DNA of 64,000 nucleotides from Diplonema papillatum (taxonomy: Eukaryota > Euglenozoa > Diplonemea > Diplonemida > Diplonemidae): assembly GCA_030068145.1 (NCBI GenBank), contig JAPJBO010000285.1:1-64000 (forward strand), read 5' to 3'. Below the pieces are notes generated by a model, which saw nothing but the letters and a program-made list of their open reading frames with translations, searched no databases and was not told the DNA's origin. How positions within the stretch are numbered: position 1 is the stretch's first letter; the number at the start of each line of letters is the position of its first letter. Shown in pieces: positions 23,985-61,162 of this stretch. The position numbers and the translations under genes are program-made.

Positions 23985-26395
23985 GACGAGTTAGAGTGCA
24001 GGACCATCTCTCCGGGGAGTTTCCGGTCTCCTCACTTCTCTTCGCACTGCTACGGCGGGCGTAAGTCGCTCCGGAGGCGCGCTGCAGGTTACGGCTCTGC
24101 TACAGTGAGTGGCGGCACCGGAGTTGGTGCTGCAGCGGGCGCTCTGGCCGGCGGGTGAGCTCGTCTCGCGGGGGATCGCCGCCTTGTAACGCTGCGGGCC
24201 CTCTTCTTCCTCGCGACTGCGCGGCCTACGGCGGCGGCTAACACCTTGATGGGAAACTTCAGCTTCCATTTAGCGAAGGCTTCGTCCTGAGGGTACACGG
24301 GTTTGGCGTCATTCCAGCTGTCTTTGGAGCAAACTGCTACTATGCCGTTTAACATCGCCTCTGTCCTCCGTCCAGCTGCAAAACGTGGACGGTGTGTGAA
24401 TCCCGGCATTGCCGGCGCACCCAGGCAGCGTAAAGAGCATACACCCTGACGCCACTTCCCGGGGAAGGCTGAGGCCCCCGTGTCAGCAAAGCTTAGGTCG
24501 TTGATGGCTCGTGTTAGATATCCTATCTGCAACCCTTTTTCGGCAAACGTTTCCCCAGGCAGCTTGGATCGCGTGTAGGCCTCAAAATCCAAAGCGAGTT
24601 CCACGCCGGTCGTAGGGAGAGGGGGGGTGTTGACCCAACGTAGATTCCTTAGCCAGTAGACTAGCGTCGCCGCGAAGCGCGTCCCGATCTGCTTCGTGAG
24701 GAGCTCACGGCTGTCCCTTGCCAGCTCAACGTCATATATCTCCCTGCCGCGGCGGAGGCAAGCTCCCAGGGGCGCGTCGTCGCGATATTGCGCCATCTCG
24801 ATGGAGATGGTCCCGATCAGCTTCTGGACCCTCTCCACGAGTACCGGCGGGGTTCCGATGGGGGGAATCCCCCGTGTGCTCAGGCATAGGGGCATATTCT
24901 GTGCCGCCACTTCGAGTCGGCAGCGTAGATTTACCACCTGCCCCCTGGTCCCGGGCATTCCCAGAAATAGTGTAGCAGGGTCCCCGGCGTCCCACCGTCG
25001 CAGAACTCGCATACGCCGTCATCCGTTCCCCATTTTCTGTTGCACCACTCGCGAGAGTACACCGCTCCTGCGATGCATTTGCGGATTGCAAAGCTGAGCC
25101 TGTCCTCCGTCGCGCGGTTCTGCCACAGTCTGTTCAGCAGGCGCACATCCACCCCCCTCTCGATACCCGAGTAGCCTTGCCTTTGTGTCGTCAGGTAGCG
25201 CCACGCTCGAAGACGCAGGCCCTCACGGACGAAGTGCAGTGTCTCCTTTCCCGGAAAAAGGCACGGCTCGCATTCGAACGATAGCAACTCGAAACTGTGC
25301 CGCTTCGCCGGCAGGAAACGTATCTCTCGAAGGAGATTGGATATCAGCCCGACGGGGCCCTTTAAGGAGGCGTCAGCCCCGGATACAAGAAGGGCATCCA
25401 TTCGCAGCCGAAACCTCTCCTTCTGGTATTGCTTCGCGGCGGTGCGGAGTGAGCTGTACCCGGAGGCGCATGCCGGATCGCACAAGTGCGCCTTCGCAAC
25501 AAGGGTAAGTGTCGCGAGGGGGCTCTTCGCCCGATTTGAGCGAGGAATCAAGCAGGCGGAGAGAGCCGTGCGAAGGACGGAGTTGTTCGCAAAGCCACCG
25601 GCCGAGTTGGCGCAGTAGGCCGCGCCGTAGTGCGCGGATGCCGCGATCGTCTGCATGACGCGGAACTTGGTGCGCGGCTTCAGTGGCGACGCTTCCAGCC
25701 TGGCTGCGGCTTCCACGGTCGCGTCAGACCTACCGTTGTCCACAGGCCCTTCTGTGCCCAGGGGAACGCCCAGAACCTTAACGGTCTTCACCGACTTCAC
25801 CGCCTTGCCTCCAACCTCGAGACGGGGGCCTTTTTCCGACGTCGAGAAGGAGGCACACTTGCCTTCGTTGAGAGCGAGGCCGGTCAGACTCCCGAATATC
25901 GCGGTGACTTCTATTCCTTCCTGGAGCAGCTTCGCGAGTCGCGAGAGGAGGTACAAGTCATCAGCAAAGGACTTCGGACTCACTCGTGCCCGGCTGACCA
26001 GGGCTTTCGAGAGCACGGACAGAAGGGCGTTGATCAGGACCACGGAGATAGGGCAGCCTTGGAGGATGCCGTTCGTGACCTTGAATTCATCGCCCACTCC
26101 CAGCGGGTACTTGAAACGACGTCTGAGGTACTTATAGACGTGGCGCAGAGGCGCCAGCACACGCTCATCAGCCCCAGAGCCTCAACTAGGTCGAGTACCA
26201 AACCTTGCGGAACGCGGTCAAAACATTTCGCAAAGTCGAGCGCGATCCCGTGTAGCGGCGTTCCGTTAATAAGGGATTCCTCTATCGACAGCGCGATGTC
26301 CATGATGACGTCGTCGCAGGAGTGGCCTTTCCGGAAGCCATGTTGAGACTCGTGTATCCACTGCTCTTGCCAGACAAGAACGTTGAAGTATGGCT
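23985..26395 (-). mobile_element. 5'-truncated or interrupted LINE (non-LTR retrotransposon)
   Basis: Minus-strand element with reverse transcriptase, a Cys/His knuckle and a C-terminal domain. The 3' end is marked by the sequence shared with 21489-21590, and a GA-rich run follows at 23970-23985. A third fragment of the same family lies at 34053-34960. Coding capacity is destroyed by frameshifts, so this copy is inactive. Confidence 0.85.
24089..26395 (-). pseudogene. LINE reverse transcriptase ORF, two frameshifts
   Basis: In order: SQHGFRKGHSCDDVIMDIAL (about 26350-26290) and GIALDFAKCFDRVP (motif A, catalytic Asp; about 26245); a frameshift near 26155; NGILQGCPISVVLINALLS (motif B) and SFADDLYLL (motif C, FADD) in the 26160-24931 frame; then CEFCDGGTPGTLLHYFWECP, a CCHC knuckle typical of LINE C-termini, near 24985. 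A second frameshift near 24965 moves the frame to 25012-24089, which carries RFAATLVYWLRNLRW and GVELALDFEAYTRSKLP and ends in an Ala/Pro/Arg-rich tail. No apurinic endonuclease domain is seen in this stretch. The catalytic RT residues survive. Confidence 0.85.
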
Positions 26396-32413: not shown

Positions 32414-34052
32414 CTAAAATATCGGGTGTTTTGGGGTGTTTCGGGGAGTTTCGGGAAGTTTCGGGGAATTTCGGGGAAATTCGGGGAGTTTCAGGGAAGA
32501 CACCCAGCCGCGTTGTAAGGAAGGACAGACTGGAAGGTACAGGTTGACACGGTTTTACACAGGTAGCAACAAGATCCGCTGCGGCAAGGAGAGCAGGAAC
32601 CGTTCCACCAGAGGTCGTGCGGTTACAGAGACGATGCTCGTGCTCGAGTCGCAGCTGGGGGAGTCGCAGCTGGGGGAGTCGCAGCTGGGGGGCGAACAGG
32701 CACGTTCAAAGATGAGGTGTGGGGGATGGACGTATTTTCCACGTATGGGGAGGAATGGATCGGACGTGCTGGTGGGACGCCTTCGAAGACGGCACCTCCG
32801 GCAAGAAGGGGCAGAAAAGGGTAAATTTAGTGGGCGGCGGAGACCCAGCGCGTGGAGGTAGGCGTGCCCAGGCCACCACCAAGGACGAGAGAGTGTGCAC
32901 GAGACATCAAAGTGAAATGCGAAGAGTGCAAGCATCGGCAAGCGTCGGTAGCGCGCTGCTGCCGAGGCACACCACGCGGCAGGGGACGGCCTTGTCGTGA
33001 AGTATTCGAGAAGCACAGATGACGCAGTGCTGGACGATCGCGGAATGCTGCAGGAACTCACACCACGGATGCCTGCAGCACGATATGCCGATGTGCGGAG
33101 TCGGCGGCGAAGAGACGGAAGCGCGGGCCTTCGCCCCGAAGCGACACCGAAGTCGAGACGCAAGCTGCGACCATCGGCCCAAAGCGCCACAAGGGAAGCG
33201 GCGGATGCCGGCGCCAACACCGCCATCGAGAACGCCGCAGGGAATTCTCCGTCGTTCACGCACTCCTGAGACGCAAGCAATGAACGGAGAAAACACGAGA
33301 GGTCACATACGATGGGGTTACCCCCCGAGCTAGCCGCAGAAAGTGAGCGAACGGGCTAGCCCCGGAGGTCACGGGGGACGGAGGGTGGGAACCCATGCCC
33401 CACGGATCTCGCCGCCGAAGCAACGGAAGCTGGTATCCAGCAAGAAAGTGCACCCCCGCACGAGGGTATCCATGGCCGCACGGCCGTCGAAGGCAGACAA
33501 TGATAAACAGAGTTGCAGGGAGGGCGGGTGGGAAAATTTTCCCCCGCGATCCAAGTGCGCACCGAGGTGTCCTAAGGGTCGTTTGTTTTACCTAGTAACC
33601 CCTGATAAATCAATACAACGAAGCGGCGGCGTAAGGACTCGCCATCATCGAAGACAGATGGCGTGCACTCCGCGGCGGGCAGAGGTGCAAGATAAGGTAC
33701 CAGTGACGAAGAGAGGTAGCACGACGACGTAGTCACGAAAGCGAGCACAAGCGAGGAGTAAGGTTGATAACCAAAATGAGAAGCACGATGGCCATCCTGA
33801 AGAAGCAGGGTTGCAGGATAATGCTTGGCCGAGGATAAGGTTGCTATGACGACTGGGACAGAGAGATAACGAGTCCTCCTTATGGGGTGGTCACGCTTTC
33901 GCACTGTTTCCGATGCGGCTTCCAACCATCGAAGGCTAAACTCGGGCGCAGGAGCGGTGCTTGTCGTTCGGGACCAGATGGGGGACGACTGGGTCTGCCC
34001 GGTTTACACGTGACTGCTGCAGCGTGGTCAGAAGTGAGAAAGTCATCGGGAG
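32410..34052. mobile_element. GGGGAGTTTC-repeat element, copy 1 (damaged)
   Basis: Starts CCACCT then aaaatatcggg, and carries a direct array of tcggggagtt-like 10-mers to about 32506. The interior (32520-33000 and 33740-34044) matches 50540-50940 and 50960-51460 of the second copy; 33000-33740 is unique to this copy. A shared frame reads EGQTGRYRLTRF ... RCGKESRNRSTRGR and a Cys-rich KVKCEECKHRQASVARCCRG. Another ORF at 33019-33333 has ECCRNSHHGCLQHDMPMCG. The right end is lost where LINE sequence begins at 34053. Confidence 0.7.
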
Positions 34053-34076
34053 ATCCCGGCACCGCCGGCGCACCTA

Positions 34077-34710
34077 CTGGGGGGGTCAAATACAATAGGT
34101 ATAATATTGTATTTGCTGGGGGAGGCTAAAGAAAACCGGGTTTTCAAAAGTCTGGGTGCTGAAAGTCTGGTGTACAGGCACTTGGGGGTCAACAATGGAG
34201 GAAATTTGGCAAAAACGTTGCGGGACGGAAAGAGCTATCCCTGGCATGTATCGGCACCTTTTCGACACTCGATATAGCCTAAAATCTGGCCCCCAGATGG
34301 CACTTCAGACTTTGGAAAACCCACTCCGCCAGGAATCGAACCAGCACCCTCAGCACCACATGTGGGTGTGGGAACCGCTGGACCACGTGCTAAAAAAAAG
34401 CGGGCCATTTATTTTTGGGCTCGGGTGGTTCTCAGAAATTGTTGAACCCGAATCCGAGGAAAAGCCATCGACAACGAAATCAAGCAGTAAGATTGGACTC
34501 CCGGCTTCAGGAGTGTTCCACATTGAAACTTCTCTCGAAAAAGAAGCTGCTCTCGAGTGGGGAAGCCCGTGGAAGCCCCTGCAAACCCCCACTGAGGACA
34601 AATAATATTGTATTCCAAGACTATGCTCACCAAAACCCCCTTTTCAGCGTACCTATTGTATTTGCCAATAATATTGTATTTGACTACCTACAGTATTTGA
34701 CCCCCCCCAG
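34077..34710. mobile_element. TA-flanked inverted-repeat element with tRNA-like core, copy 1
   Basis: Ends CTGGGGGGGTCAAATAC and its inverse GTATTTGACCCCCCCCAG, each flanked by TA. Subterminal motifs aataatattgtatttg occur at both ends. No transposase: non-autonomous. The LINE flanks (cgcacc on one side, gacaacgc on the other) indicate insertion at a single TA, as in Tc1/mariner-type transposition. A second copy is at 53966-54628. Confidence 0.9.
34332..34385 (-). promoter_or_regulatory. tRNA-like Pol III internal promoter (A and B boxes)
   Basis: On the minus strand, TGGTCCAGCGG (34385-34375) fits the A-box consensus TRGYNNANNNG and GGTTCGATTCC (34342-34332) is a perfect B box, 32 nt apart. 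TTTT follows about 14 nt downstream, a Pol III terminator. Stem pairing is poor, so this is a tRNA-derived sequence and not a functional tRNA. Confidence 0.65.
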
Positions 34711-35139
34711 TAGACAACGCAGGGAGCAGACGCCCTGGCGCCACCTGGGAACCCCTGAGTCGGCGCAGCTTAGGTCGTTGATGGCCCTCATAAGGTACCC
34801 TATCTGCAGCCCTTTCTCGGCGAAAGTCTTCCCTGAGTTTCGACCGTGTGTATGCCTCGAAGTCCAGAGCAAGTTCCACGCACGATTGGAGCTGTCCCAG
34901 GTCAGATTCCGCAGCCAAAAGACCAACGTCGCAGCGAAACACGTTCCGAGAGTATACCATATGAATTCACTACCACGACAGAAAGGTAAGCACACCCGAA
35001 ATGTCAGAAGAGGTTCCTTCATCTTTTTCGACTTCGTCGTGAACAGCCGACAACTGCTTGTTTGTTTCATTAAAAATGTAATTCCCTTATATCCCGTATG
35101 TCCCATTGGGATATAAGGGAACAAAATTTGTTGACCACA

Positions 35140-38741: not shown

Positions 38742-39203
38742 AAAAGGGGGGGGGGGGTTGGGCAGATGTTTTCTGGTATATACTGGGCATGTGGGGTATA
38801 GGACCCATACCCCCCCAGGAACCATGTTTTCGGGCCGATTTTGGGGTCCAATGCCCTCGGAGAACCTTTTTCTGAGCGCAAACCTCAGTTGTTGTGGACT
38901 TTGAGGCCCCAGGTAGGGTTACGACTGTACAATGGCTACTACTACTACTGGATCTAGCAGGTGTGCCCACGCCCGACACTTTGGCCGCACAGTTAACACC
39001 CCCACACGATGCTGGAGTGCACCGTGCGGGGCCTCGAAACCCACAGAAACAGAGTTTTGCGCTCAGAAAAAGGTTCTCCGAGGGCATTTGGCCCCAAAAC
39101 CGGCCCGAAAAAATGGTTTCTGGGGGATATGGGTCCCATACCCCACATGCCCAGTATCTTACTATGCCATAAAACATCTGCCCAAACCCCCCCCCCCCCT
39201 TTT
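38742..39203. mobile_element. foldback element with ~150-bp inverted arms
   Basis: Left arm runs aaaagggg(n)ttgggcagatgtttt, tactgggcatgtggg, ccatgttttcgggccgattt to ttctgagcgcaaa; the right arm from about 39055 is its inverse, ending cccctttt at 39203. The 160-bp centre is unique. No coding capacity. Confidence 0.9.
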
Positions 39204-39821
39204 GGCATCGTACACGGTGCAGTAGTAAAGGCTTTCACTAGTAAACTTAAATTTTACTAGTGCACTTGTAAAATTTACAAGTGCACTAGTAAAATTTACA
39301 AAAAAAGTGATTTCAGGTGTTTTGGCAGGTGTTTTGGGGTGAAACAAGAAGAAACTGTGGCAAGTGAAGCACACATTCAGAAGAACCGGCTTCTTTTTCA
39401 CCTAACTCGTCAAAATGGGGCTGGGAGAGCAGAGCAAAGTGACAACCCAGTGCTTGAGAGCCCCGCGCGTAGGCAGACCGCGTCAATCCAGATTTCCCCA
39501 CTCCAAGGCAAACGTGAACACTCGAACACGACCCCCGTGTGGCTCGATGCGGTGGGAACACGGGACAATAACATCGGAACAGACGGAGCGCGAAGGAGGA
39601 GGCGTTCTTGTCCTCTCAGAGCAGAGTCGTGCACAGGTACGTCCTGGTACCAGAAATAGAGTTGCACGGCAAAAGACGCTCTGGTATCTTGCTTTTGGCC
39701 CAGGAGGTTACGAATATCTCTGCCTGCGTGCGTCTTGTGCCGGACAGGCTTGGCATCCATTTTTTGGACTGAGTCGTGGGCAACAGTGCGGTCAACTCTG
39801 AAGGGCAAATACCGATAAACG

Positions 39822-39897
39822 GAAATAAGTTGGACCGGACAAAATGGTCCAACTCACCTATTTTGGGCTCTGGTGGTCCAACTTTTGTCCGGCCACT
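39822..39897. repeat. TTGGACCGGAC hairpin repeat, copy 1
   Basis: cggaaataagttggaccgg, acaaaatggtccaa, then ggtccaacttttgtccgg: an imperfect foldback of about 75 bp, related to 41913-42010. Confidence 0.75.
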
Positions 39898-40431
39898 TTT
39901 TTTCGGGGGGTTCTGTGTACTTGGTGCAGTTTTGCGGCTGGCCAGCACTCGCTCCACTCCGTAGTCGCGCATGGGTCCGCCGCCAGGAGTTCCCGAACAC
40001 TGCGCGGCGCTGCGTAACCCGCTGAGTTCCCTCCAGCAACTCGCAACGAAGCACCCTGGCCATGGTCATTGGTCGCCATGGCCCTGTGGTGGAATCACAA
40101 GATCTTCCTTGCGCGGAAGGGTGTTTGATCGCGACCGGTTGCGGTTGGTCAGTGCCGAGGGTGGACCAAGATGCGTCCACCGTCTGTCCCATTGCTTTGG
40201 TAGAGTGCAAACGCAAAACTGCAGAGTGCAAACGAGATGGCTCGAGGTTGTGTGGCTGACAGTGAAGGAAAAAGTATGAGCCGCCAATAAACGACGATCT
40301 TGGTACGCTCAAGAAGAAACCCAACGCATCTCTCGCGCCTGACTACCCATTTGTCACGGGACATTTTTTACCTCATGCCCATCGACCCAACCCCGCCTAA
40401 GTGGATACGTGCCTGGGCGGAAATATGGGAC

Positions 40432-41906
40432 ATTCCCCATTATGCTATTAAAGTTTGCTAATTTCCCCATTATGCTATTAAAGTTGCTAATTTCCCCATT
40501 ATGCTATTAAAGCTGCTAATTTCCCCATTCTGGGGGGGTTTTTTGCTAATTTCCCCATTATGCTATTAAAGTTGCTAATTTCCCCATTATGCTATTAAAG
40601 TGGTGCTAATTTCCCCTTTTGGTGAACATGCTGATTGTTTCCCGCGGACCAGCACAGTGCCAAGACGCTGTGACTTGCAAAGTTAACTGTTCGGAAATAA
40701 GCCGTTTTCTCGAAACAATCTACTGAAAGTAGGCTAAGTAGCGCCGTCGAATCGATTTCATCAAACGACTGCTCGCGTTAGGCACAGTTAGAAAGTGCAA
40801 TGTCATTATCTTCCTCGAAAATGGACAAAACTACTCACAAAAAGTCTTGACCAGACTACCTGTGCTGTACTACGACCGCCAGTAGCCCAGTCGCAGAATG
40901 GGGAAATTAGCAAACTTTAATGGCATAATGGGGAAATTAGCGCCACTTTAATAGCATAATAGTCTGACACCAGACTAAGTTGGAGCAGACTAAAGACAGC
41001 TGCACCGAAGCTAAGCTCTCACTGTCTCAGCGGCACTGTAGCAAAGCAACAGCTTCTGCCAAGTTCTGGCGGAAAAACTCGGGAACCATACTGCAGGCTG
41101 CACTGCAGCGTGGACCTTTGTGGTACTCATTTGGAAATTTGATACATGAGATGAGGCTTTTCATCATTTCATGAGCCCAGTTTGTGTTGTCACAGTTGTG
41201 GATTCAGATACAGTGGAATGCCGCTGCGGTGGCCATGATGGGCGCCGGGTCAAACCCGAAGTGCCAGGGCGGGCACTTCGGGTTGCTGCCATGTCTTGGA
41301 CCAACCAAGGACTCCTGAAGGAGTGTACTGAAGATTTCATGACCAGCAAGCTATTAGCCGTATCCTCACACACGTACACAAATCCAAGGGTTTGCGGGAA
41401 ACCATTCCCGAAACGGTAGGACATGTTCGTGGTAGAGGCCGCGGGAAACTGTGGAAAACGGGTGGAAACCCGCCGAAACCCAAAAAAAATGTTTTAATGG
41501 CATAATGGGGAAATTAGCAAACTTTAATGGCATAATGGGGAAATTAGCACCGCTTTAATAGCATAATGGGGAAATTAGCAGCTTTAATAGCATAATGGGG
41601 AAATTAGCACCACTTTAATAGCATAATGGGGAAATTAGCAAACTTTAATAGCATAATGGGGAAATTAGCACCGCTTTAATAGCATAATGGGGAAATTAGC
41701 AGCTTTAATAGCATAATGGGGAAATTAGCACCACTTTAATAGCATAATGGGGAAATTAGCACCGCTTTAATAGCATAATGGGGAAACTAGCAGCTTTAAT
41801 AGCATAATGGGGAAATTAGCACCACTTTAATAGCATAATGGGGAAATTAGCAGCTTTAATAGCATAATGGGGAAATTAGCACCACTTTAATAGCATAATG
41901 GGGAAT
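40432..41906. mobile_element. element with opposed ~30-bp minisatellite arms
   Basis: Left arm: about six tandem units of ttccccattatgctattaaa at 40432-40620. Right arm: about thirteen inverted units of tttaatagcataatggggaa at 41490-41905, plus two inverted units at 40897-40965. Linkers between units alternate (caccac, cagc, caccgc, aaac). The two outer ends are inverse copies (attccccattatgc ... gcataatggggaat). The 40970-41490 interior has no recognised gene. Confidence 0.8.
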
Positions 41907-41912
41907 CACCCC

Positions 41913-42010
41913 GGAAATATGTTGGACCGGACAAAATGGTCCAATTGTTTTGGTCGTCCGCGGTCCAACCTTTGTCCGGTCCAATATATTTTCGGTCCAA
42001 CATATTTCCG
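41913..42010. repeat. 98-bp foldback with perfect 19-bp ends
   Basis: CCGGAAATATGTTGGACCG (41913-41931) is perfectly inverted at 41992-42010. A second TTGGACCGGAC pair lies inside. It abuts the right arm of 40432-41906. Confidence 0.85.
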
Positions 42011-42342
42011 GTCCAACTTTCTTCTGCTTATGATATGGAAGATCCACGGGGGGTTTCGAGGGCTGAAGGATTCTTGTCACACGAGGGTGCTAGGGGAAGT
42101 TGTTTGGGCTGTTGCCGTGAGAATAGTACTTCTTGGGGTTTGGCGGTTGCTTTGGTCGGGTCGGGGTGTTGGGAACGAACGCGGTGTGCCTACTGCTTCA
42201 TTTTATTGTCGTTGATTATTGGGGTGTTGCTGCCGCTGCCGTGCTTGCGTTCTCACCTTCTTCCTATGCTTGTAGGGCCCATGTTGCCCATTCAGCGCAC
42301 TTGTCTCCCGGGCAGCTGGCACGCGTAGAGCCACACTCCGGA

Positions 42343-42786
42343 TTACCGCGTGGTTCCCTTCGCATAGGCGTCCAGGGCCTGCATTCGGGTGCCCGAACAC
42401 CGGCCTTTGGTCCGCCTCCGGCTGAACCATCTAAGGTGCGCTGTGTCGCCCCCTGTCAGAATGTGTTGAGAGGTGGCCTTTTCGTTGCACCCTCCTAAAC
42501 CACATATCTCCGTTGTGCCGTTTTGTAGAATCGATTGCCTCACTAGCGCACTGCTCCGCTGGACCTCCGGAGTTGGTGCAGCGTCTTGCCGTTGATGCTG
42601 CTCTGTGGCGCGTTTAGTCGCTCTCTGATGCTCGAGGGTCCCCCGTGCAAACCTGCCGATCTCTTCCATCTGCACTAGGCCGGCGGCATCTTGGGCGCAT
42701 ACATATTGATCCACATCAAAGACGCTTCGTCCGTTTAGCACTCTTCCTGCTGCCTCGTCCGCTTTTTCATGTTTACGAAACCTCAC
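42343..42786 (-). pseudogene. possible LINE C-terminal relic
   Basis: The minus frame has CGLGGCNEKATSQHILTGGD, resembling the Cys/His knuckle near LINE C-termini, after a basic Gln/Arg-rich stretch. No RT motifs are visible upstream. A plus ORF at 42800-43088 with CYIDGLCGTPHCGNNNVKIP overlaps the adjoining part and is equally unassigned. Confidence 0.35.
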
Positions 42787-43549
42787 AAATTCTGACTATT
42801 ATGGTCGAGCCCGAGTGTTACATTGATGGGCTGTGTGGAACTCCTCACTGCGGCAACAACAATGTCAAGATCCCTGCTTGGGCAAAGCCTCCGTGCCGAA
42901 GCGTGTCGGGAAATGGTAGGCATGCTCGGACCGACTGGAAGTATTCGCAACAGTCAGGCGGCCGCTTCTGCCCAGGGTTCCCCGCTCCCCGCTCACGTCG
43001 CTATTGTAGAGTGTGTTTCACTGTTGTGAATTTGGCACGACACCACTCACAGTGCGTCTCTCTTGCCTCCGTTTCTTCTCATTTGTAGACGCTTTTCCTC
43101 GGCAGCTGTCAACTAGCTCAACAAAAGTCTCAGGGTAAAGGGGCTGGACAGTGCGTACAGTTCCAGTTGGGTGCGCGCTGCTCCTCTCATCCTTTTTCAA
43201 CGGCGCCGCTGTCTATCAGGGGAGATGATTCCCATCAAGGCCCCCAACAACCCTGCCCAACTCAGTCCGAGGGGTAGTGCACATCGACCAAACCTCCCCA
43301 GTTTTCGATCTCGCAATTTTTCACGCAAAATCCCCTATAAATCACTGTTTTGGACTGAAAAACACCTGAATTCACTTGTAATTTTTACAAGTGCACTAGT
43401 AAAATTTACAAGTGCACTAGTAAAATTTACTAGTGCACTTGAAAATTTTACTAGTAAAACTGTAAATTTTACTAGTAAAAGTTTTTCCTAGTAAATTTAC
43501 TAGTAAAAGGGTCATTTTACAAGTTTACTACTGCACCGTGTACCATATT

Positions 43550-50306: not shown

Positions 50307-52041
50307 CCACCTGGTCCAGACGAAAATATCGGGGAGTATCGGGGAGTTTCGGGGAGTTTCGGGGAATTTCGGGGAGTTTTCGGGGAAATTCGGGGAGTTT
50401 CGGGGTGTTTCCTTTGTGGCGACCACTTTCCCTGCAGCCGGCCTTGGCGAAGGCGGGGAGGGGGCTACGCTATTATGGCCCTACCTTGCGCAGAGCGGTC
50501 CCGTGTTTGGCTATGCCCCGAAGACGAAGATAGAGGCTGAGAAGGAAGGACAGACTGGGAGGTACAGGTTGGCACGGTTTGACACCGGTAGCGACAGGAT
50601 CCGCTGCGGCAAGGAGAGCAGGAACTGTTCCACCAGAGGTCATGCGGGTACAGAGTCAATGCTCGTGCTCGAGTCGCAGCTGGGGACGAACAGGCACGCC
50701 TTCAATGATGAGGTCTGGGGGATGGACGTATTTTCCACGTATGGGCGGACGGCACCTCCGGCAAGAAGGGGCAGAAGAGGGTAAAGTTAGTGGGCGGCGG
50801 AGACCCAGTGTATGGAGGTAGGCGTAGAGTGTGCACGAGACATCACAAAGCGAAATGCGAAGAGTGCAAGCATCGGCAAGCGTCGGTAGCGCGCTGCTGC
50901 CGAGGCACACCACGCGACAGGGGACGGCCCTAACCACCAGGACCAGGGGCAGCTACGGTCGAAGACGGCAATTCGAGCGAGGAGTAAGGTTGATAACCAA
51001 AATGAGAGGCACGATGGCCATCCGAAAGCAGGGTTGCAGGATGATGCTTGGCCAAGGATACGGTTGCTATGGCGACTGGGACAGAGAGATAACGCAAGAT
51101 AGAGTGTCCTCCTTATGGGGTGGTCACACCTTCGCAGTCCCAGGACCTGCATACGGTCGTCGACTGACCATTCCCGAGACGAGTTGGAATGCGGGTACCA
51201 TCTTTCCGGAGATTTCCGGTTCCTCCCGTACTCTACAACTCCCCACATAACTTTCAGCCGGGTGCACGAATTCAGAATTCCGGGATGGGTTGACCCACTG
51301 TTTCCGATGCGGCTTCCAATCATCGAAGGCTAAACTCGGGTGCAGGAGCGGTGCTCGTCGTTCGGGACCAGATGGGGGACGACTGGGTCTGCCCGGTTTA
51401 CACGTGACTGCTGCAGCGTGGTCAGAAGTGGGAAGGTCATCGGGAGATGGCGGGCGCGAATAATTTTTGCCCAAACCAAAACCCAAGAGGGGATTGGAGA
51501 GTTTGACATAAGAATGGCAAACTCGTGGTACCGAAGGTTGCAACCGCAAACAGAAGAGTCAGATGATGGTTGAACCTGCGCACATGCACACGACGCGTCC
51601 TGTTCAGACTCCTCCCTGTGTCCAAGGACTCAAAGGCAGGTCCTGCAGGTTTTCCAGCAACTGCTGGTTCGCCTTGAGGCCCTCCGAATCCGCAGGCTGA
51701 AGGGTGTGCCTCAACAACTGCCCAAGCTACAGTTGGTAGATGCATCCGGTTAGTAGAGGAAGAGGATCGGAGGAGGAGGAACACGGACGGCTTCAGGGAG
51801 CCGCGTCCGAAGCACACTAGCACACCTACCTGCACACCTCACCCACTGGCCCGCACCCGTCTACCCAACTACCCACCTGTTCACCCATCCACCGACCTGC
51901 TCACCCACCGGCAGCCCCACTTTTTCCCACAAAAATCGGGCTGAGTATCGGGGAGTTTCGGGGAGTTGCGGGGAGTTTCGGGGAGTTTCGGGGAAGTGTC
52001 GGGGAGTTTCGGGGAACTTACCAGGAGCCCGGACCAGGTGG
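50307..52041. mobile_element. GGGGAGTTTC-repeat element, copy 2, with TIR and 5-bp TSD
   Basis: Ends CCACCTGGTCC (50307-50317) and GGACCAGGTGG (52031-52041), perfectly inverted, flanked on both sides by TTGTT (50302-50306, 52042-52046). Direct arrays of tcggggagtt units lie inside both ends (50328-50412, 51943-52018). Interior shared with 32520-34052, including the GRYRLARFDTGSDRIRCGK frame and CEECKHRQASVARCCRG. No known transposase or RT. It fills most of myosin intron 4. Confidence 0.85.
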
Positions 52042-52410
52042 TTGTTATATAATCCACTCTTTGGATTCCGTATCGTCGGTTTTCCTCATTAGAAATACGC
52101 TTGACTATGGTCTAGACAAATCTTTTTGTTTAAGTCGGCACTAGTTCGACCACCTCTTTGGTCTTTAGTGGGGCCCCAAAGACGGGGCACAACACCCAGC
52201 TCACAAAACGGTCCAAGGCTCAGCGATGCACAAAAACGCTTGAGGCGACTGGGTCCGAAACGCACTTCTTTTTCTGCGGAGAAGTCCAGATTCAAGAGTT
52301 GGCGACCTCGCTTGCTGAAGAGACAGCTTGTCCTTGACCCCTTCTCATTCTGTACAAAAACGCCCAGCGCTGATGGCTTTCGTCTAACGTTTTGTAAAAA
52401 GCTAACATAC

Positions 52411-53648
52411 CCAGCTTGCGCAACATCGCACACATCGGCTACATCACACCACAGGTACCGACCGTCAGGAAACTCGACCCTAAATTGGGACCTGCCTCCC
52501 GGTTCATGGTCAGAAACAGTGGCCAGTGCTTGGGCGGATGAAACATACACCTGCTGCCCTTTGCGCACCATGACAGGTGGGCAGGCAAGGATGTCGATAG
52601 CATGGGAATTGATACTTCCATCCGAATGCGTGTGCGTGCCAGGGAGCAGTGTCTTCACTACATGCGGGTGTGGTGTGGTGGGCGAACTAAAGGGGGTTGT
52701 GGAAGGTGTACGTGGGCTCACTGCAAGCAGCTCGAGAGTTAGTCGGTTTTCAAGAACCTGGGTGTGCGCCTTCTGCTGCAACGTGTGCAACTCCTCGGCA
52801 GCTGCGATGTTGATCTCCGGTGCATTCGGCAGTGCGAGCCGCTCAACCAAAGATCTGTCTTTCACGCGGTTCCGCTCGCGGCGTAGCTGTTCTTTGCGAC
52901 CCCGCTCTTCGCGGCTGTTGTGGAGCGCCGCGTGCGCCTGAATCCGAAGCTTCTCAAGCTCAACGCGCTGCCGAAGCTCGGCACCCGAAGTGCTGAACGT
53001 GTTGAAAGCACGCGCTTCTTCGCCTTCGAGGGCTCGTCGGGCTATCGTTTCTGCGGTCTCGCACTGCAGTAGCACGATTAAACATGCCAACCGATACTGT
53101 TCATCTCGGAAAGGCTTGTGCAAACCGAGCTCCTCTTGCTCAATTTCTTTGCGCGCTTTTTCCTCGTCTGCAGACAGATTAAAGCTCGCATTTTTGAGTT
53201 TGTCCGCCAGCTCTCGTGCAACACGTTCCGCTTCCTCGCGTGCATATTTATCTGCGTCTAGCTTTCGTTGCTCTTCTTCTCGTTTTCGCCTCGCTTCCAA
53301 CTCCTTCAAAACCTGCTTTCTCGCTTCATCAAGCAATGCGCTGTTCACCGTCAGGACCGTCTTCCTTACGTCGGCGATGGAGAACAAGCCTCTCGCAAAC
53401 GCTTGCGCCACCTCTGCATGTTTACGCAGTCGTTCTTTTTTCATTGTTTCGACTTCGACAAAGGCCTCAGCCTTCATGAAAACCTTCGTTTTGCCGAGCT
53501 GTGCGCTTTTCTTCTCCATGCCGCACTCCTTCAGTATTTTCTCACACGCTGCTCGTCCTTTTCCTCCCCCTGGACTAATGACACGATACTTGTAGAAAAA
53601 GTCATCGTGCTTTAAGCGCACGGGGAATCCGGCCTTCCGAATTGTGAC
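52411..53648 (-). CDS. myosin heavy chain, converter/neck/tail exon
   Basis: Starts after aaacacag with VTIRKAGFPVRLKHDDFFYK, the converter region. GKTKVFMKAEAFVEVE marks the end of the motor. The expected lever arm follows (KKERLRKHAEVAQAFARGLF) but lacks a clear IQ motif (IQxxxRGxxxR). A charged alpha-helical coiled-coil region comes next (LEARRKREEEQRKLDADKYA), then a Pro/Thr linker and a small barrel-like segment (QFRVEFPDGRYLWCDVADVC). I end the exon at GCTGG|GTATGT; the open frame continues to 52089 but would be intron. The class is not determined. Confidence 0.8.
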
Positions 53649-53965
53649 CTGTGTTTTAGGTTGCTCAATATACGGAATGGACGTGATCGTTCACGAGAAG
53701 TCGTGATTCTGGCCTGAAGAAAAATAATCGTTATTTTGAATATTTATGAGACAAAACCATATCGGAAGCACTTAAGTGGGGAAAATATTTATCGGAACGT
53801 TTCCGATAAATATTTTTTTGTTTCCGATAAATATTTTTTGTTTCCGATAAATATTTTTTTTTGTTTCCGATAAATAGTTTTTTTGTTTCCGATAAATATT
53901 TTTTGTTTCCGATAAATATTTTTCTGTTTCCGATAAATATTTTTGATACGGGTTCCTGGGGACTA

Positions 53966-54628
53966 CTGGGGGGGGTCAAATACAATAGGTATAATATTGT
54001 ATTTGCTGGGGGAGGATAGAGAAAACCGGGTTTTCAAAAAAGTCCGAATTTCGACACATAGTCAAATACAATTATACTGGTTTTGGGTTTTAGGCCACCT
54101 TGGGGGTTAACAATGGAGGAAATTTGGCAAAAACGTTGCGGGACGGAAAGAGCTATCCCTGGCATGTATCGGCACCTTTTCTACACTCGATATAGCCTAA
54201 AATCTGACCCCCAGGTGGCACTTCAGACTTTGGAAAAACCACTCCGCCAGGAATCGAACCAGCACCCTCAGCACCACATGTGGGTGTGGGAACCGCTGGA
54301 CCACGTGCTAAAAAAAAGCGGGCCATTTCTATTCGGGTTCGGGTGGTTTTCAGAAATTATTGAATCCGAATCTGAGGAAAATGCCATCGACAGCGAAATC
54401 AAGCTGTAAGATTGGACTCCCGGCTTCAGGAGCGTTCCACATTGAACTTCTCTCGAAAAAGAAGCTGCTCTCGAGTGGGGAAGCCCGTGGAAACCCCTGC
54501 AAACCCCCACTGAGGACAAATAATATTGTATTCCAAGACTATGCTCACCAAAACCCCCTTTTCAGCGTACCTATTGTATTTGCCAATAATATTGTATTTG
54601 ACTACCTACAGTATTTGACCCCCCCCAG
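53966..54628. mobile_element. TA-flanked inverted-repeat element with tRNA-like core, copy 2
   Basis: Same family as 34077-34710, same ends and interior. Flanks read ctggggac-TA and TA-gtccccag, so the empty site would be the perfect palindrome CTGGGGACTAGTCCCCAG. Confidence 0.9.
54250..54303 (-). promoter_or_regulatory. tRNA-like Pol III internal promoter, copy 2
   Basis: A box at 54303-54293 and B box at 54260-54250, identical to the first copy. Confidence 0.65.
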
Positions 54629-54639
54629 TAGTCCCCAGT

Positions 54640-55330
54640 GCGAAATGTGCCCAAGGGGAGTCCCATTGGGCAAGCAATTTCATTGGATTTTGCGAGGACC
54701 CTAAGGAATCCGGAGCCAGTGTGATAGACCTCTGATGTGGGCCGCTTCACTGCTCGCCTGCATGTGGACTGCTCTGTACCTGTGCCTTCTCCGCGCTTGC
54801 AGCTTTTCAAGCCGGCCACGCCTGCTTTCCCTTTTCTGTCTTTCGACCTCGGTGATCCCTCGCGGGCGTCCTGCTGTGCCATCTGAATCTCCTCGCCTTC
54901 CTTCCTGGTTTGCTTGGCACCCTCTGCTCGCGCAGCTTGCGGCGCGGGTCTCTTCAGAGCCGGTCGTCTTCGTGTGCGCTGTTCTGTCATCGCTTGCCTT
55001 TGTTGCCGATTTCTGCAACAAAGGCAGTTTTGGCCCGTGAAATGGGCTACTCTCTCTTTATTGTGTGAGTGCTTTTGTCTCCAGGATTGAAATGAGGCTG
55101 ACGCGGAAAATCCTACCGTCCGACATGGCACAAGTCAAGGGAAACAAATATTTTACGGGAACTAGTATGCACGGCAGCCCCGATACTACTAAGCCCCGTT
55201 GGCATACTTACACTCCATGGCTGCCTCGATGGCACTAAATCCGTAGTCGTGGTTAGACATTTTCAGGTAGGATGTTACCTGGTCAGGACCGCATGCAGTT
55301 TTGTCGTATTGGAGCCGCATAGGACCCGGA
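54640..55330 (-). other. interior of the satellite-armed element, basic ORF
   Basis: A minus frame from about 55131 contains NCLCCRNRQQRQAMTEQRTR and is Lys/Arg/Gln-rich; no ATG start. Possibly an element protein remnant; unassigned. Confidence 0.3.
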
Positions 55331-55334
55331 TGAA

Positions 55335-55844
55335 GTCGTTGCGAATACACACAACAGATCAACGGAGGGTAGAACTGGGGAACATGCAGATCAGACGGAA
55401 GTAGAATGTGCAAACTTATCCTTTTCTTGACTTACTATGCCGTTCTGAAAGCTGTTGAGGGGCCCCTACGTAGGTTCTCGCATGATTCGTTCGCCTTTGT
55501 AACACTATCCGTTTGAAGTAAGCTTTGCAGTTGTGTTCTTGCAATATCGAGCCGAATGGTGGGTGGCGGATTTCCGCGCTCGTGCGCAAGACGCAGTTTT
55601 ACTGCAACGGCAGTGCAAGCCGAACCCGGTTCGTGACCTTTGTCGCGGTGAAGTGGTACAAAGTCTTCAGCTTACAGATCCGGATACTGCTCAATGCAAC
55701 CAGATAGTTAGATGCCACCACTTTACCTTTAGCCATACTACAACTCACTTGATGGATACCCGTGTGCTGCATTCGAAAAGGTTTGCGTATCTGGTGTTGA
55801 AAATTGAACAGCCTTTGCTTGGGAGGCTTTCGACCCGAAACTAG
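55335..55844 (+). repeat. shared interior block with short ORF, copy 2
   Basis: Matches 35755-36190. Keeps FLQYRAEWWVADFRARAQD after the same TAA, then diverges downstream. It sits in an element whose ends are unlike those around copy 1. Confidence 0.6.
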
Positions 55845-55991
55845 ATAGAAAACCGATCGTATTTGGCTTCGTCGCGGTCGTCCACAGGACGAAGTAGGTG
55901 AACCTACTGTCAAAGTGATCAATACTTATCGGAAACAGAAAAATATTTATCGGAAACAAAAAATATTTATCGGAAACAAAAAATATTTATT

Positions 55992-56127
55992 GTTGAACGC
56001 TTACGCCCGCCACTAAACCCAGGGTTACCTGTGTTTCGTGTGGGCTACAGCACATTTACCTCCTTTGATCTATCGCAACTGGCAGTCTCCTCAAGCATTT
56101 CCTACAAAGCAGGTGCTTATACAAAAA
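55992..56127 (-). repeat. DIRS direct repeat, 3' copy
   Basis: 136 bp from ttgttgaacgcttacgcccg to ggtgcttatacaaaa, identical as far as I can read to 60454-60589. Confidence 0.9.
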
Positions 56128-56217
56128 TACTCGAGGGACTGCCTTGTGCTCATTTCGAAGGAGGCTAGAGGGGGAGAAAACAATACAACTACAAAGTGGG
56201 TCTTTTTTGTTGAACGC

Positions 56218-58050
56218 TTACGCATCAGGACCCCCAGGGACCACGCAGTGGCACACCAAATCTGAGGGCGGAGCTAGATCCTCTGCATGAGGCGACCAGA
56301 CACTCTCTGGCGTGTCGCTCACCAGGGCCAGCACCCCGCGGGTGTAGGGGTCGGCCCTTTGCGCATCGGTCGGAACCCACTCGGCACTGATGACAAGGCC
56401 GGCAGCCCGTGCGGCGTCGAATATCCTCGTCAAAAGGACATTGGCCGCAAAATTCTTTGAGTGTCCCTTGTTGAGACAATGGACCGCCGGGAGGTTGTCT
56501 ACCATGAGCCTTACGCGGACGTTCGAATGGAAACTGGCGGTCATCTCGATGCCCCGAAGGACTGCAAAGAGTTCCTTCAAAAAGATGTGGGTGTGACTCA
56601 ACTCCACAAAGGGGCCCTGTGACACGCGCTCAGATTCCCCTTCGAGGACCGCAGCCCACCATTTGGACGAGGCGTCTGTCCAGAGAGTGACCGATGAGGG
56701 AAAGGATTCTGACCGACTGACCCAGCGATTCTCTTCCACAAGGGAAACAAGATGCTCGACCTCACGCACCGTCGAGGGCGGCACAGCCCTCGTCACATCC
56801 CAGGCAGCTGGATCCGATGCCAGAGTCGAGGCCAGCCTCTGCAGGAACGACAAGGAACATCGGGCGTAGGCCAGTCGGAAACGTGTCGTGTACGCGAACC
56901 AGACCAAAGATCCGAACACCCGGTAGAACTGGCGAGGGGATACTCCTCCAAGCCGAACCATGGCGAGCTCGGGGGAACCAAGCAATTTCGACACCCACGA
57001 TTCTGCCATCCTATACCGGGCGGGGCGGTCGAACCGGGAGAGTTCGAAATGGAGTCCTAGGAGGTCGAACTCCCTGAGGGGGGCTCCAAACTGCTCGTCG
57101 TCTTCGTTGAGCTCGCAGTTAACGTCCCTGCAGCGTTGCACGAAAGAGTCGAACCGCGAAGTTGCCTCCCGCAACGAGCTTCCCACGACGACAAAGTTGT
57201 CCACCCAGGGTAGACCGTCAGCCTCCGGTAGGAGCACCCGGGAGGCCCTCTGAGCTATCGCCGGAGCCCAGCTCCACCCCATGCACATTGCGGCGAGTTG
57301 TGCCTGTACAAAACGGCCCCGCGGCCCTGCCAGGTGCATGCCAAAATACGGTCGGATGTCTGCGTCGAGCCGGAACTGATAAAAATAGCTCCGGGCGTCC
57401 GCGAGAAACACCACCGATGAGGCCAACACGCGGTCGATCACCTCGTGAACCGAAGGGAGCAGCATTGGAGGCGGGCGCGCCATGATCGCGTTGAGCTTGC
57501 GACCGTCACACACGAACCTCTGCCCACCGCTCTTCTTGTCGACAGTGAAGGCGGGGAGGACGACCCTCAACCCGCCCGATGCGACCTCTGCCACGCCATA
57601 TCTCACCAGATCCGGGAAGTGGCGTAGCATGCGCCTCGACGTCGTTCGTGTGATCGCCGATGCCATCAGCGCTTCCTCCGCCCCCGGGAGCAGGGCGGAC
57701 CGGAAGGATTCCCACGAACGGACCACGTCCAGCACACCGCGCAGCAGCCCCCGGCTGTCCAGCGCCGTCAACCTCTCAAGGTTCATGAACGATGACGAGA
57801 TGGGCGCGAGAGCCTCGCCGATTCTGCGTTGCGTAGGGACGGCCGTGAGGTTGTTGATGAGGAGTTCACCCCCGTAAGCAACACCAACAAAGGGAGTGAA
57901 CATCGAGGGGGGCAAGTCTTCTTCGGGACCCTCTCCCGGCCCCTGGTAGAACGTAGCCAACGGGTCGGGGAACTTCTTGGGCGGCTTAAACGGGAAAGGG
58001 GGTTCAAGACGAAGGGTTAGAGAAGGGACGCCGACGCCCTCGCGGTGTTC
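56218..58050 (-). CDS. DIRS reverse transcriptase - RNase H
   Basis: The frame is open up to 59181, but the upstream part overlaps the recombinase gene in another frame, so coding probably starts near 58050. RT: LPAFTVDKKSGGQRFVCDGR; FLADARSYFYQFRLDADIRP (motif A Asp); AAMCMGWSWAPAIAQRASR; and LPWVDNFVVVG at motif C, where the usual YxDD is WVDN. RNase H: VTLWTDASSKWWAAVLEG, FLKELFAVLRGIE, LMVDNLPAVHCLNKGHSKN and WVPTDAQRADPYTRG supply the D-E-D-D set. The start overlaps the recombinase stop (58017), so frameshifting or reinitiation is likely. No stop or frameshift inside. Confidence 0.9.
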   Translation of the reverse strand, partial: EHREGVGVPSLTLRLEPPFPFKPPKKFPDPLATFYQGPGEGPEEDLPPSMFTPFVGVAYGGELLINNLTAVPTQRRIGEALAPISSSFMNLERLTALDSRGLLRGVLDVVRSWESFRSALLPGAEEALMASAITRTTSRRMLRHFPDLVRYGVAEVASGGLRVVLPAFTVDKKSGGQRFVCDGRKLNAIMARPPPMLLPSVHEVIDRVLASSVVFLADARSYFYQFRLDADIRPYFGMHLAGPRGRFVQAQLAAMCMGWSWAPAIAQRASRVLLPEADGLPWVDNFVVVGSSLREATSRFDSFVQRCRDVNCELNEDDEQFGAPLREFDLLGLHFELSRFDRPARYRMAESWVSKLLGSPELAMVRLGGVSPRQFYRVFGSLVWFAYTTRFRLAYARCSLSFLQRLASTLASDPAAWDVTRAVPPSTVREVEHLVSLVEENRWVSRSESFPSSVTLWTDASSKWWAAVLEGESERVSQGPFVELSHTHIFLKELFAVLRGIEMTASFHSNVRVRLMVDNLPAVHCLNKGHSKNFAANVLLTRIFDAARAAGLVISAEWVPTDAQRADPYTRGVLALVSDTPESVWSPHAEDLAPPSDLVCHCVVPGGPDA

Positions 58051-59189
58051 CGGACGAGCGGAACCTCGGCCTCCGGAAGGTATCGCATTAGCGCACTCAG
58101 CGTCGTATGGCGCGACACACTTTGGATCACCTTCAGGTCGATCCCGCTTCTCAGGAGATGAAACAGGGCGCCCCGCCGGAGAGAATGGCCGGAGAGTGAA
58201 ATGTTCGCGCGCTTCAGCGCGGTCACAACTCGTCGGAAAGGGAGGTCCGGGAACAGGAGGCGTCCCGGAGGTGTTTGCGACAACAGCGTCCGGAGCTCCT
58301 GGTCCTGGGCTGGAGGAAGAATCACTCCTGTCACCTGGCCGAGACGGAAAGGATCCGACTTCGAGCCCACCCAGTTCACCGCCCAGAAACCAGCACTTTC
58401 GGTGACGTGCTCTGCCTTTCTCGTCAGCACGTCGTCCACGCGGGCGGCACCCTGCCAGGCCAAAGCCAGCGCAACACGCACCCTGGGGTCCGCTTCCAGG
58501 GCAACGGCAAGATGCAGCTCGTCCTTCGTCACCGGTACAGCCTGCTTCGACGGCTTCATCGCGCCGGCCCGTTTCAGAGACCTGACAAAGTCCCTGACGA
58601 GCTGGCTGTCGACAGGCCGCCCCAACCGCTTCTCGGCCGACTGTACGTTGACGACGTACTGTACTGCCGAGGCCGCGCAGATGTCTCCACGAGAGAGCAA
58701 ACGGGTCACGAACAAGACCAGCGCCGTCGGGACATCGAGCTGCGAATCTGCCTCTGCATCCCAGTGACGTCGGAACTCCAGAAAGCGCCGGTACACGGAG
58801 TGGATCCCGCGTCGTGTGGACAGCGCCAGTGCATCCGCCACGTACGCGTTCGCAGTCCGGACAAGACGGTTCCGTTCGCCGGGTGAGAGAGGGGGCTCCG
58901 AGAGGAGGGGACGTCCGCATCGCCCCGAGACCGGAGGAGGGAAGCGGTTCACGGCGTCTACTGCTTGGCCTTGCTCCTGGTTGCGTTCGTCCGCTGAGGG
59001 GCCTGGGGAGCGTCGGGGGGAAGAGCTTCGCCCGAGTGTCGGGTGCGGGGCCTCGGGCTGCGCTTCCTGGGCGGCTTCGAGGCGGGCTGCTCCTCGGCTT
59101 TCTGTAGAGCCTGGAAGACGCTCCGTAGAAACGGAGGAAACCCGGCCTCGTGCTGATGCCGGTGCTGGAGGCTGCCTGCAAGAGACCAC
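58017..59189 (-). CDS. DIRS tyrosine recombinase
   Basis: Core-binding part: RTANAYVADALALSTRRGIH, YRRFLEFRRHWDAEADSQLD. Catalytic part: VALALAWQGAARVDDVLTRK (first Arg), ISLSGHSLRRGALFHLLRSG (H-x-x-R) and IQSVSRHTTLSALMRYLPEA (His and the nucleophilic Tyr). All catalytic residues are present. The frame overlaps the end of gag by about 230 bp; its first ~80 codons may be shadow. Confidence 0.9.
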   Translation of the reverse strand: MVSCRQPPAPASARGRVSSVSTERLPGSTESRGAARLEAAQEAQPEAPHPTLGRSSSPRRSPGPSADERNQEQGQAVDAVNRFPPPVSGRCGRPLLSEPPLSPGERNRLVRTANAYVADALALSTRRGIHSVYRRFLEFRRHWDAEADSQLDVPTALVLFVTRLLSRGDICAASAVQYVVNVQSAEKRLGRPVDSQLVRDFVRSLKRAGAMKPSKQAVPVTKDELHLAVALEADPRVRVALALAWQGAARVDDVLTRKAEHVTESAGFWAVNWVGSKSDPFRLGQVTGVILPPAQDQELRTLLSQTPPGRLLFPDLPFRRVVTALKRANISLSGHSLRRGALFHLLRSGIDLKVIQSVSRHTTLSALMRYLPEAEVPLVRNTARASASLL

Positions 59190-60451
59190 CCGGCTTTCAG
59201 AGCCGTCTTCAGGACCATCATCCGGTGGATGGTGTCCCTTCCCAGCTGGACGAGGGCGTCTGGGTCGGTGGTGTCGTCCATCAGTCGCATGATGGTGGTG
59301 ACGTGGTTGGTGAGATGTTGGGCGTCGTTGGCGACGCTCGGGATGGCATCGAGGATGTCGGCGAAAAAGTCGCGGATGTGCACCAGGGCCAGCGACTTCT
59401 CGATGGGGCTGAGGCCGACCCAGAGCTGGGGGTCGAGGAGCTCTGGCCCGGGGGAGAGGAGCGTGGGGGAGCCTTGGACCGACCCGCCCTCCCCCAGCGA
59501 AGGCGGGCCCTCCGGAAAATCCGGAAGGGGTTGTGAAGACCCAGCGTAGGGCTGGGGGGGCTCGGCGCGGGGCTGGTAGAGCTCAGCGTACGGATGGTGT
59601 CGGTACACTGGCGGCGCGGCGTCCTCGATGGCCCGCAAGAGGCCGCAGGAGGAGCCCGGCAGCAGGACAGCCCGGGGTAACCGAGAGACGTCGATAAGAG
59701 GCGGAGGTGGCGGGAGCTGGCCTGCGAGCGGCCCCTGACGGGGCGCTGGGCAGGGACAGGAGTCCAGCGGCGTGGCCGCGGCGGCGGGGAAGGACCCAAC
59801 GGGCATCGCTACCGGCGGAGGCGCGGGGCAACCAGGAGGCGCGTCGCGTGCGGGGTGAGTCGTCGCCGCGGGGACAGGCTCAGGCCGCGGCGAGTCGCGC
59901 GTCGGGAGAGCCGCCATCACCAATTCGGTGAGGCGCTCGACCTGCCGCTGCAGGCGGTCCATGCGGTCTGAGTCGCCGCCCCGGCTGCCCTCGGTGGAGC
60001 CGCAGTCCCTGAGGTCGCCATCACCCGGGTCGTCGCTCTCAGCGAACGAAACGCGGCGCGCCGCCGGCGGAGATAGGGCCGCGGTAGAGTCGGTGGGGGT
60101 GGCGGGGAGCGGCATGTGCCCCGGCGTCTGTGGCGGGGGCGCGGCCTTCGGGGACGAGCGCAACAGGTCTGCGAACTCGCCCTCGGTGGCGGAAGGCGCC
60201 GACGCGACTGCGAGCCACGCCAGTACCCACTGGGCGACGCCCTCCGGGGGGGCCTCCTCGTCGGTGTAGCCCAAGGCGCCCAGGAGGCGCCTCAGCCCGG
60301 CTTCCGCGGTGCCCTCGACCTCGCGGGCGACCTTCAACACCGTCGAGAGACGGCGGTTGTTCGCGGTGAAGGAAAAAAGGGACGGGACATCAGTCCCGAC
60401 CACCCTCTTCACCCAACTCACCGCGCCCGACCTGTCGAGTTGCTTCGGCAT
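58958..60451 (-). CDS. DIRS Gag-like protein, 497 aa
   Basis: ATG at 60451, directly after the 5' repeat. N-terminal ~100 residues are compact and helical (SWVKRVVGTDVPSLFSFTAN, EGTAEAGLRRLLGALGYTDE); then a long Pro/Ala-rich disordered region with a heptad stretch (MDRLQRQVERLTELVMAALP); then a helical block (SPIEKSLALVHIRDFFADIL, DDTTDPDALVQLGRDTIHRM) and a basic tail (KPPRKRSPRPRTRHS). No zinc knuckle. Assigned by position and character. Confidence 0.75.
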   Translation of the reverse strand: MPKQLDRSGAVSWVKRVVGTDVPSLFSFTANNRRLSTVLKVAREVEGTAEAGLRRLLGALGYTDEEAPPEGVAQWVLAWLAVASAPSATEGEFADLLRSSPKAAPPPQTPGHMPLPATPTDSTAALSPPAARRVSFAESDDPGDGDLRDCGSTEGSRGGDSDRMDRLQRQVERLTELVMAALPTRDSPRPEPVPAATTHPARDAPPGCPAPPPVAMPVGSFPAAAATPLDSCPCPAPRQGPLAGQLPPPPPLIDVSRLPRAVLLPGSSCGLLRAIEDAAPPVYRHHPYAELYQPRAEPPQPYAGSSQPLPDFPEGPPSLGEGGSVQGSPTLLSPGPELLDPQLWVGLSPIEKSLALVHIRDFFADILDAIPSVANDAQHLTNHVTTIMRLMDDTTDPDALVQLGRDTIHRMMVLKTALKAGWSLAGSLQHRHQHEAGFPPFLRSVFQALQKAEEQPASKPPRKRSPRPRTRHSGEALPPDAPQAPQRTNATRSKAKQ

Positions 60452-60453
60452 TT

Positions 60454-60589
60454 TTGTTGAACGCTTACGCCCGCCACTAAACCCAGGGTTACCTGTGTTT
60501 CGTGTGGGCTACAGCACATTTACCTCCTTTGATCTATCGCAACTGGCAGTCTCCTCAAGCATTTCCTACAAAGCAGGTGCTTATACAAA
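60454..60589 (-). repeat. DIRS direct repeat, 5' copy
   Basis: 136-bp partner of 55992-56127, ending three bases before the gag ATG. Confidence 0.9.
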
Positions 60590-60768
60590 AAAAAAAAAAT
60601 ATTTATCGGAAACAAAAAAAATATTTATCGGAAACAGTTTCCGATAAATATTTTCCCGACTTAAGTGCTTCCCTTATGGTTTTCTCCGAATACTTATTCT
60701 CCTTCTTCGACGATGTTTTTCGTTAGCCATGGAGGTTTGGATACTGTAGTCAGGAAATGAAAGTGTAC

Positions 60769-60859: not shown

Positions 60860-61041
60860 CTGTAGGTAAAGGGAGGAAAATCTTAGTGGAGGGGACGAAT
60901 AAGTTAATGATTCGGGTCCAATCTCACGTGGTTAAGTACTACCTGTGACGGCCGTTCGTGCCGGGCCAACCCCTTTCAACGTGGAGAGCAATTGTACAAC
61001 AGCTTTCTGACGCTGCAGCACTCAACAAGAAATTTCCATAC

Positions 61042-61162
61042 CTTATCCAGTGTGGGTTGGTAGAATTCACGAGCTCCATTAAGTCATGCAGTTGCTGCTT
61101 GTAAAAGCCGCCAACAGTGATCTTTGCTCCTCGCGCTTCCGGATTTGGTTTTGGAAGAAGCT
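61042..61162 (-). CDS. myosin heavy chain, 121-bp exon
   Basis: Follows caacacag; encodes LLPKPNPEARGAKITVGGFY then KQQLHDLMELVNSTNPHWIR, ending ATAAG|GTATGG. Matches the motor's strut/relay-proximal segment. Confidence 0.9.

Follow-up and report, generated by a model that had tools for sequence, protein, structure and literature searches.

Foldback-like design in DNA transposons has been described as polyphyletic (PMC3169594, PMC3573991, PMC4079207). The THAP domain of Galileo binds repeats within the long ends of that element, and the same report calls such binding untested for Foldback and Phantom elements (PMC3688188). The TNPA protein binds the subterminal repeats of CACTA elements (PMC2613891), and the target duplication lengths quoted for CMC and hAT transposons are 2-4 bp and 5-8 bp, respectively (PMC4482050). 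Here we analyze a stretch of 64,000 nucleotides of Diplonema papillatum DNA (assembly GCA_030068145.1, contig JAPJBO010000285.1, positions 1 to 64,000 of the forward strand; hereafter, the window) that contains four elements, A to D, each bounded by inverted ends that are followed inward by arrays of short repeats. All four are real, repeated DNA transposons. With a probability of roughly 0.75, we consider them to be non-autonomous cut-and-paste transposons that belong to three or more unrelated types, whose arrays were built independently and probably consist of repeated protein binding sites.

The original prediction, made from the window alone, described four elements that share this plan but not their sequence. 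All four were found close to their predicted positions, and both the ends and the array units differ among A-D; the layout was captured in part, because the nesting of B in A, and of element E and a DIRS-like retroelement in C, had been overlooked. Internal parts of A, B, C and D were searched against the 271-Mb genome, which yielded 803, 158, 1391 and 1689 first-look candidates, respectively; 40 candidates, including the window's own, were scored per element. Long matches were 91-100% identical for A, 86-100% for B, 93-100% for C and 88-95% for D (excluding the window's own D). We fetched 20 copies of A, 7 of B, 8 of C and 7 of D, mostly the best matches, so that the sample is skewed to young copies. 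The fetched copies carry the same arrays as the window. The test set beforehand, namely, that each array would prove to be an ordinary satellite unrelated to the element borders, failed: in independent copies, the arrays are found along with the ends, which rules out satellites that merely lie beside the borders.

The features of element A are as follows.

39213..43540, plus strand: element A, ends CACGGTGCAGTAGTAAA / TTTACTACTGCACCGTG, interrupted by B
39211..39212, unstranded: left TA target duplication of A
43541..43542, unstranded: right TA target duplication of A
39233..39301, plus strand: left subterminal array of A, TTTACWAGT motifs in both orientations
43371..43480, plus strand: right subterminal array of A

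Both ends were readable in 16 of the 20 fetched copies of A (L048, L052, L053 and L055 were dropped), which together with the window copy gives 17 complete copies. The ends are 17 bp long and start with CACGG (CACGGTGCAGTAGTAAA and its complement), and the uninterrupted element is 2.8-2.9 kb long. Identical 2-bp flanks, indicating a target duplication, are present in 15/17 copies, compared with 77/272 in a control pairing flanks across copies. The flanks of L044 and L049 are mismatched, and the match extends beyond 2 bp in a single copy (L050, 4 bp). The duplicated bases are TA in 8 of the 15 matched pairs and CA, AA, TG or CG in the remainder, unlike the strict TA duplication of Tc1/mariner elements. 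Counting both strands, the two 300-bp ends together contain 18-28 TTTACWAGT motifs in each complete fetched copy and 17 in the window copy; the motif is absent from the interiors of all 17 copies.

Arrays of this kind could be functionless by-products of slippage in end DNA. Unit number indeed differs among copies, and the arms of A are gappier than the interior (8.2% and 3.3% vs 2.3%). However, slippage does not readily account for the absence of TTTACWAGT from the A interior, for arm base identity that is not below that of the interior (mean pairwise values of 98.1-98.7% vs 97.8% among 12 of the 17 complete copies), or for the placement of arrays immediately inside each end of the complete copies in four families whose ends differ. 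We regard this explanation as quite improbable.

Element B is nested in A.

40427..41911, plus strand: element B, ends GGGACATTCCCC / GGGGAATCACCC, arms of a ~30-bp unit
40418..40426, unstranded: left 9-bp target duplication of B, CGGAAATAT
41912..41920, unstranded: right 9-bp target duplication of B
40433..40616, plus strand: left arm array of B
40613..40960, minus strand (orientation relative to the fetched copy L067): inverted 348-bp internal piece of B, with inner array units
41493..41905, plus strand: right arm array of B, 13.6 units by Tandem Repeats Finder, longer than in the fetched copies

The target CGGAAATAT is present twice around B and once, as an empty site, in 19/20 fetched copies of A; it was not found in L052. 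All seven complete B copies (six fetched and the window; L070, which has no left end, was dropped) are flanked by an identical pair of 9-bp duplications, the sequence of which differs between copies. The arms are inverted arrays in which the ~30-bp unit continues the end sequence, with 5-8 units on the left (six complete fetched copies) and 5-9 on the right (seven copies). The window copy has 5 units on the left, 14 on the right and a 15th in the inverted piece. This piece, 348 bp long, is inverted relative to L067 at 99% identity. At 36/36 other B places with both internal pieces, among the matches listed, these lie on opposite strands, unlike in the window, so the inversion is rare. Another B copy, on C744 near 70649-71841, has internal pieces of mixed orientation, one 111-bp part of it being oriented as in the window.

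Element C has the same 9-bp duplication length.

53748..60688, plus strand: element C, ends GAGACAAAACCATATCGGAAGC / GCTTCCCTTATGGTTTTCTCCG, with E and a DIRS-like element inserted in it
53739..53747, unstranded: left 9-bp target duplication of C, AATATTTAT
60689..60697, unstranded: right 9-bp target duplication of C, AATACTTAT, differing from the left one at one base
53799..53944, plus strand: left arm array of C, TTTCCGATAAATATTT unit
55921..55990, plus strand: right arm array of C, left of the DIRS-like insertion
60588..60636, plus strand: right arm array of C, right of the DIRS-like insertion

The uninterrupted element is ~1.7 kb long (L062). All three copies with both canonical ends (L062, L064 and the window) have 9-bp duplications: that of L062 is exact (TTCTTGAAA), that of L064 is exact but lies within a run of A and is weak evidence, and the window pair matches at 8 of 9 bases. 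Among L062, L064, L065 and the window, the left arm has 8-31 units and the right arm 6-10, the left arm of L065 running beyond the fetched stretch.

The arms of B and C bear on the possibility that the arrays serve mainly as a recombination or foldback platform, in which paired inverted arms drive inversion, arm expansion and template switching, and transposase binding is secondary. The junctions of the inversion in the window B lie at array sequence, and the right arm of this copy is expanded; the 111-bp part on C744 shares the window's orientation; C has unequal arms, and three of its copies terminate within the array. Against this stand the 36 B places that lack the inversion, the shortness of the A arrays and the arrays of D, which are direct yet similarly placed. 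This explanation is unlikely, but not negligible, and the recombination role that the original prediction had raised gains slight support from the rearranged window B and the unequal arms.

50307..52041, plus strand: element D, 11-bp inverted ends CCACCTGGTCC, direct GGGGAGTTTC arrays, 5-bp duplication TTGTT
50329..50411, plus strand: left array of D
51943..52015, plus strand: right array of D, in the orientation of the left array

In all eight D copies compared (seven fetched and the window), the 11-bp inverted ends CCACCTGGTCC are present, with one mismatch in L078, and the GGGGAGTTTC arrays are oriented alike at both ends, as predicted. An identical 5-bp duplication flanks 4/8 copies, compared with 1/56 in the cross-copy control, and one copy (L079) has a 6-bp duplication. 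With its direct arrays and 5-bp duplication, D is not a foldback element.

A single transposase normally yields one duplication length. The three lengths found here (2, 9 and 5 bp) suggest at least three kinds of cutting, and convergence is the best reading of the plan that the elements share. The presence of four elements of like plan within 25 kb might suggest instead one undescribed class of array-bearing arms under a single machinery. This is highly improbable, because the ends, the array units, the array orientation (direct in D) and the duplication lengths (2, 9, 9 and 5 bp for A-D) all differ; a common family for the four is ruled out by the duplication lengths and array orientation. 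Most likely, going by these sequence features, the array-at-end plan evolved repeatedly. The new class that had been suspected is unneeded, given that Foldback-like ends on unrelated transposases are already discussed in PMC3169594, PMC3573991 and PMC4079207, and becomes a natural case of convergence.

Putative superfamily labels can be proposed from the ends and target duplications. The likeness to Drosophila Foldback (FB) elements that was predicted for all four holds for B and C, in which inverted arrays continue the end sequence, duplications are 9 bp long and the arms vary; A, with its 2-bp duplication and CACTA-like ends, is a poorer fit, and D, which lacks inverted repeat arms, does not fit. 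Like the Foldback/Phantom-type Mutator element Tm1 (PMC3169594), B and C have 9-bp duplications and inverted arms with a variable number of short tandem units; they depart from it in unit sequence, in the several C copies without a canonical end, and in that no MULE transposase is linked to them here. Galileo resembles these elements in the repeats within its ends, in its arm-length dynamism and in arms that change independently, and differs in its P-superfamily transposase and in arms of up to 1.2 kb (PMC3688188, PMC3573991). With CACTA/En-Spm (CMC) elements (PMC2613891, PMC4482050), A shares the CAC start, a subterminal motif in two orientations and a short duplication, the 2 bp of 15/17 copies falling within the quoted range; it differs in its ends (CACGG, not CACTA), in duplicating 2 bp rather than 3 bp, and in that no tnp2 gene is linked to it here. 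Because of its ends, we describe A as working like a CACTA element, not as being one. The duplications of 5 bp (4/8 copies) and 6 bp (1/8) in D fall within the range quoted for hAT in PMC4482050, whereas the other copies have imperfect duplications or none; hAT is a guess as a label for D, which is set apart by its CCACCTGGTCC ends and direct arrays.

Several observations weigh against reading A-D as non-autonomous transposons of at least three types. The A loci are partly non-independent, and the A duplications other than TA disfavour a simple Tc1/mariner label, yet without proving CMC. Both canonical ends are present in just 2/8 fetched C copies; in L059, L061 and L063, the arrays run into unrelated DNA, with no canonical left end or evident duplication, L060 is rearranged, and L066 has no visible left arm. 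The D duplications are uneven, with none in L075 and L076 and 4/5 bases in L078. Finally, no transposase or autonomous copy is linked to A-D, a statement with no genome-wide tnp2 or MULE transposase result behind it.

The original prediction held that none of the elements carries a known transposase. This agrees with the open frames tested, a subset of those present: at E 0.1, no transposase was matched by the two A frames tested from L043, the C frame from L062 or the D frame from L077. The single B copy listed for frames (L067) has no frame longer than 109 aa. A candidate autonomous A on C33, marked by two array matches 7.9 kb apart, was rejected: the 3.5 kb read between them contain a cellulase-like frame and no A sequence, so that these are most likely two separate A copies.

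In the mechanism that we propose, the short end sequence would be the place of transposase cleavage, and the array units would be repeated binding sites for a trans-acting protein, either the transposase itself or an accessory factor. Each array would mark an end of the element and help to bring both ends together, and arm length would then be altered by unequal exchange or replication slippage. Such a recognition platform, also suggested by the original prediction, would have precedents, by analogy, in the THAP sites of Galileo and the TNPA sites of CACTA elements, as these are presented in PMC3688188 and PMC2613891. One genome holds at least three transposon types that share the array-at-end design, with many similar copies and clear insertion scars, and arrays as putative multimeric transposase docking sites can be compared side by side across these types.

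Element A may also have a target preference. A run of at least 10 G or C lies within 40 bp of an end in 13/17 complete copies, compared with 0.2% of random positions in the window, the only source of this background. Runs of at least 7 within 40 bp are found in 18/45 distinct A flanks (background, 1.1%) and in 3/43 flanks of the other elements (B, 2/15; C, 0/12; D, 1/16; Fisher p = 0.0003 vs A). In 16 of the 18 run-bearing flanks, 6-16 bp separate the element from the start of the run. Examples of A flanks beside long G or C runs are window positions 39187-39212 and the flanks of L039, L046, L050 and L051. One short host repeat (ending ccccttttggcatcgtaccatat) harbours several A copies, L041 and L042 come from duplicated loci, and 1.4 kb of left flank is identical among L044, L046 and L047 (loci also designated L016, L018 and L019). 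This common flank may be due to duplication or to an assembly effect, and the bases between A and the adjoining poly-G tract differ among the three copies. Given the shared repeat, the duplicated loci and the one-window background, the homopolymer bias is a lead only. We put forward tentatively, at somewhat less than even odds, that A chooses insertion sites ~6-16 bp away from G/C homopolymers, where an unusual DNA structure may guide it, and that transposons of several superfamilies in this genome have arrived convergently at subterminal arrays of binding sites. The microsatellite-targeting Mutator-like family MuTAnT is similarly biased to simple-sequence DNA but enters (TA)n (PMC4486113), whereas A lands near, not in, the homopolymers. 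If confirmed genome-wide, this would be a target preference not met in our limited literature survey.

Two further elements are nested in C.

53966..54628, plus strand: element E, ends CTGGGGGGGGTCAAATAC, TA duplication
~55987..60591, minus strand: DIRS-like retroelement in the right C array, with 141-bp directly repeated ends

Element E, ~660 bp long, lies at the inner edge of the left C array in the window and in 4/8 fetched copies (L059, L060, L061 and L063); the empty site GGGGACTAGTCCCC is present in L062, L064 and L065, and its right half alone in L066. The ends of E have a G8 run and recurring motifs similar to CAAATACAATA. A second copy, 91% identical, is located at 34074-34713, and a decayed second copy of D, in pieces, adjoins it at 32424-34054. 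The DIRS-like retroelement matches the Phage_integrase profile above the Pfam cut-off and RVT_1 below it.

Minus-strand matches to the myosin head are located at 61571-62080 (profile positions 402-533), 60939-61418 (546-582, weak) and 52089-53690 (612-679, below the cut-off). These collinear pieces flank C, which, judging from the matches, probably sits in an intron of a myosin gene.

Another inserted element occupies A positions 2111-3082 in L058 (C417), with TA on both sides, ends CCGTAAATGGAAATATGTTGGACCGGACAAA and repeated GGACCGGAC motifs near the ends; the uninterrupted site in L043 is slightly different. A 311-aa frame over this insert, which we took to resemble a helix-turn-helix transposase, was rejected as a transposase candidate, because Pfam gave no match at E 0.1 (PPP4R2, at E 0.12, is below the cut-off) and a comparison with solved structures likewise yielded nothing at E 1. 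A worn relative of this insert is fixed within the core of family A.

Elsewhere in the window, a head-to-tail array with a period of ~190 bp occupies the contig start (1-1600), and a reverse transcriptase (RVT_1) fragment is encoded on the minus strand at 24931-26181 (E 2e-9).

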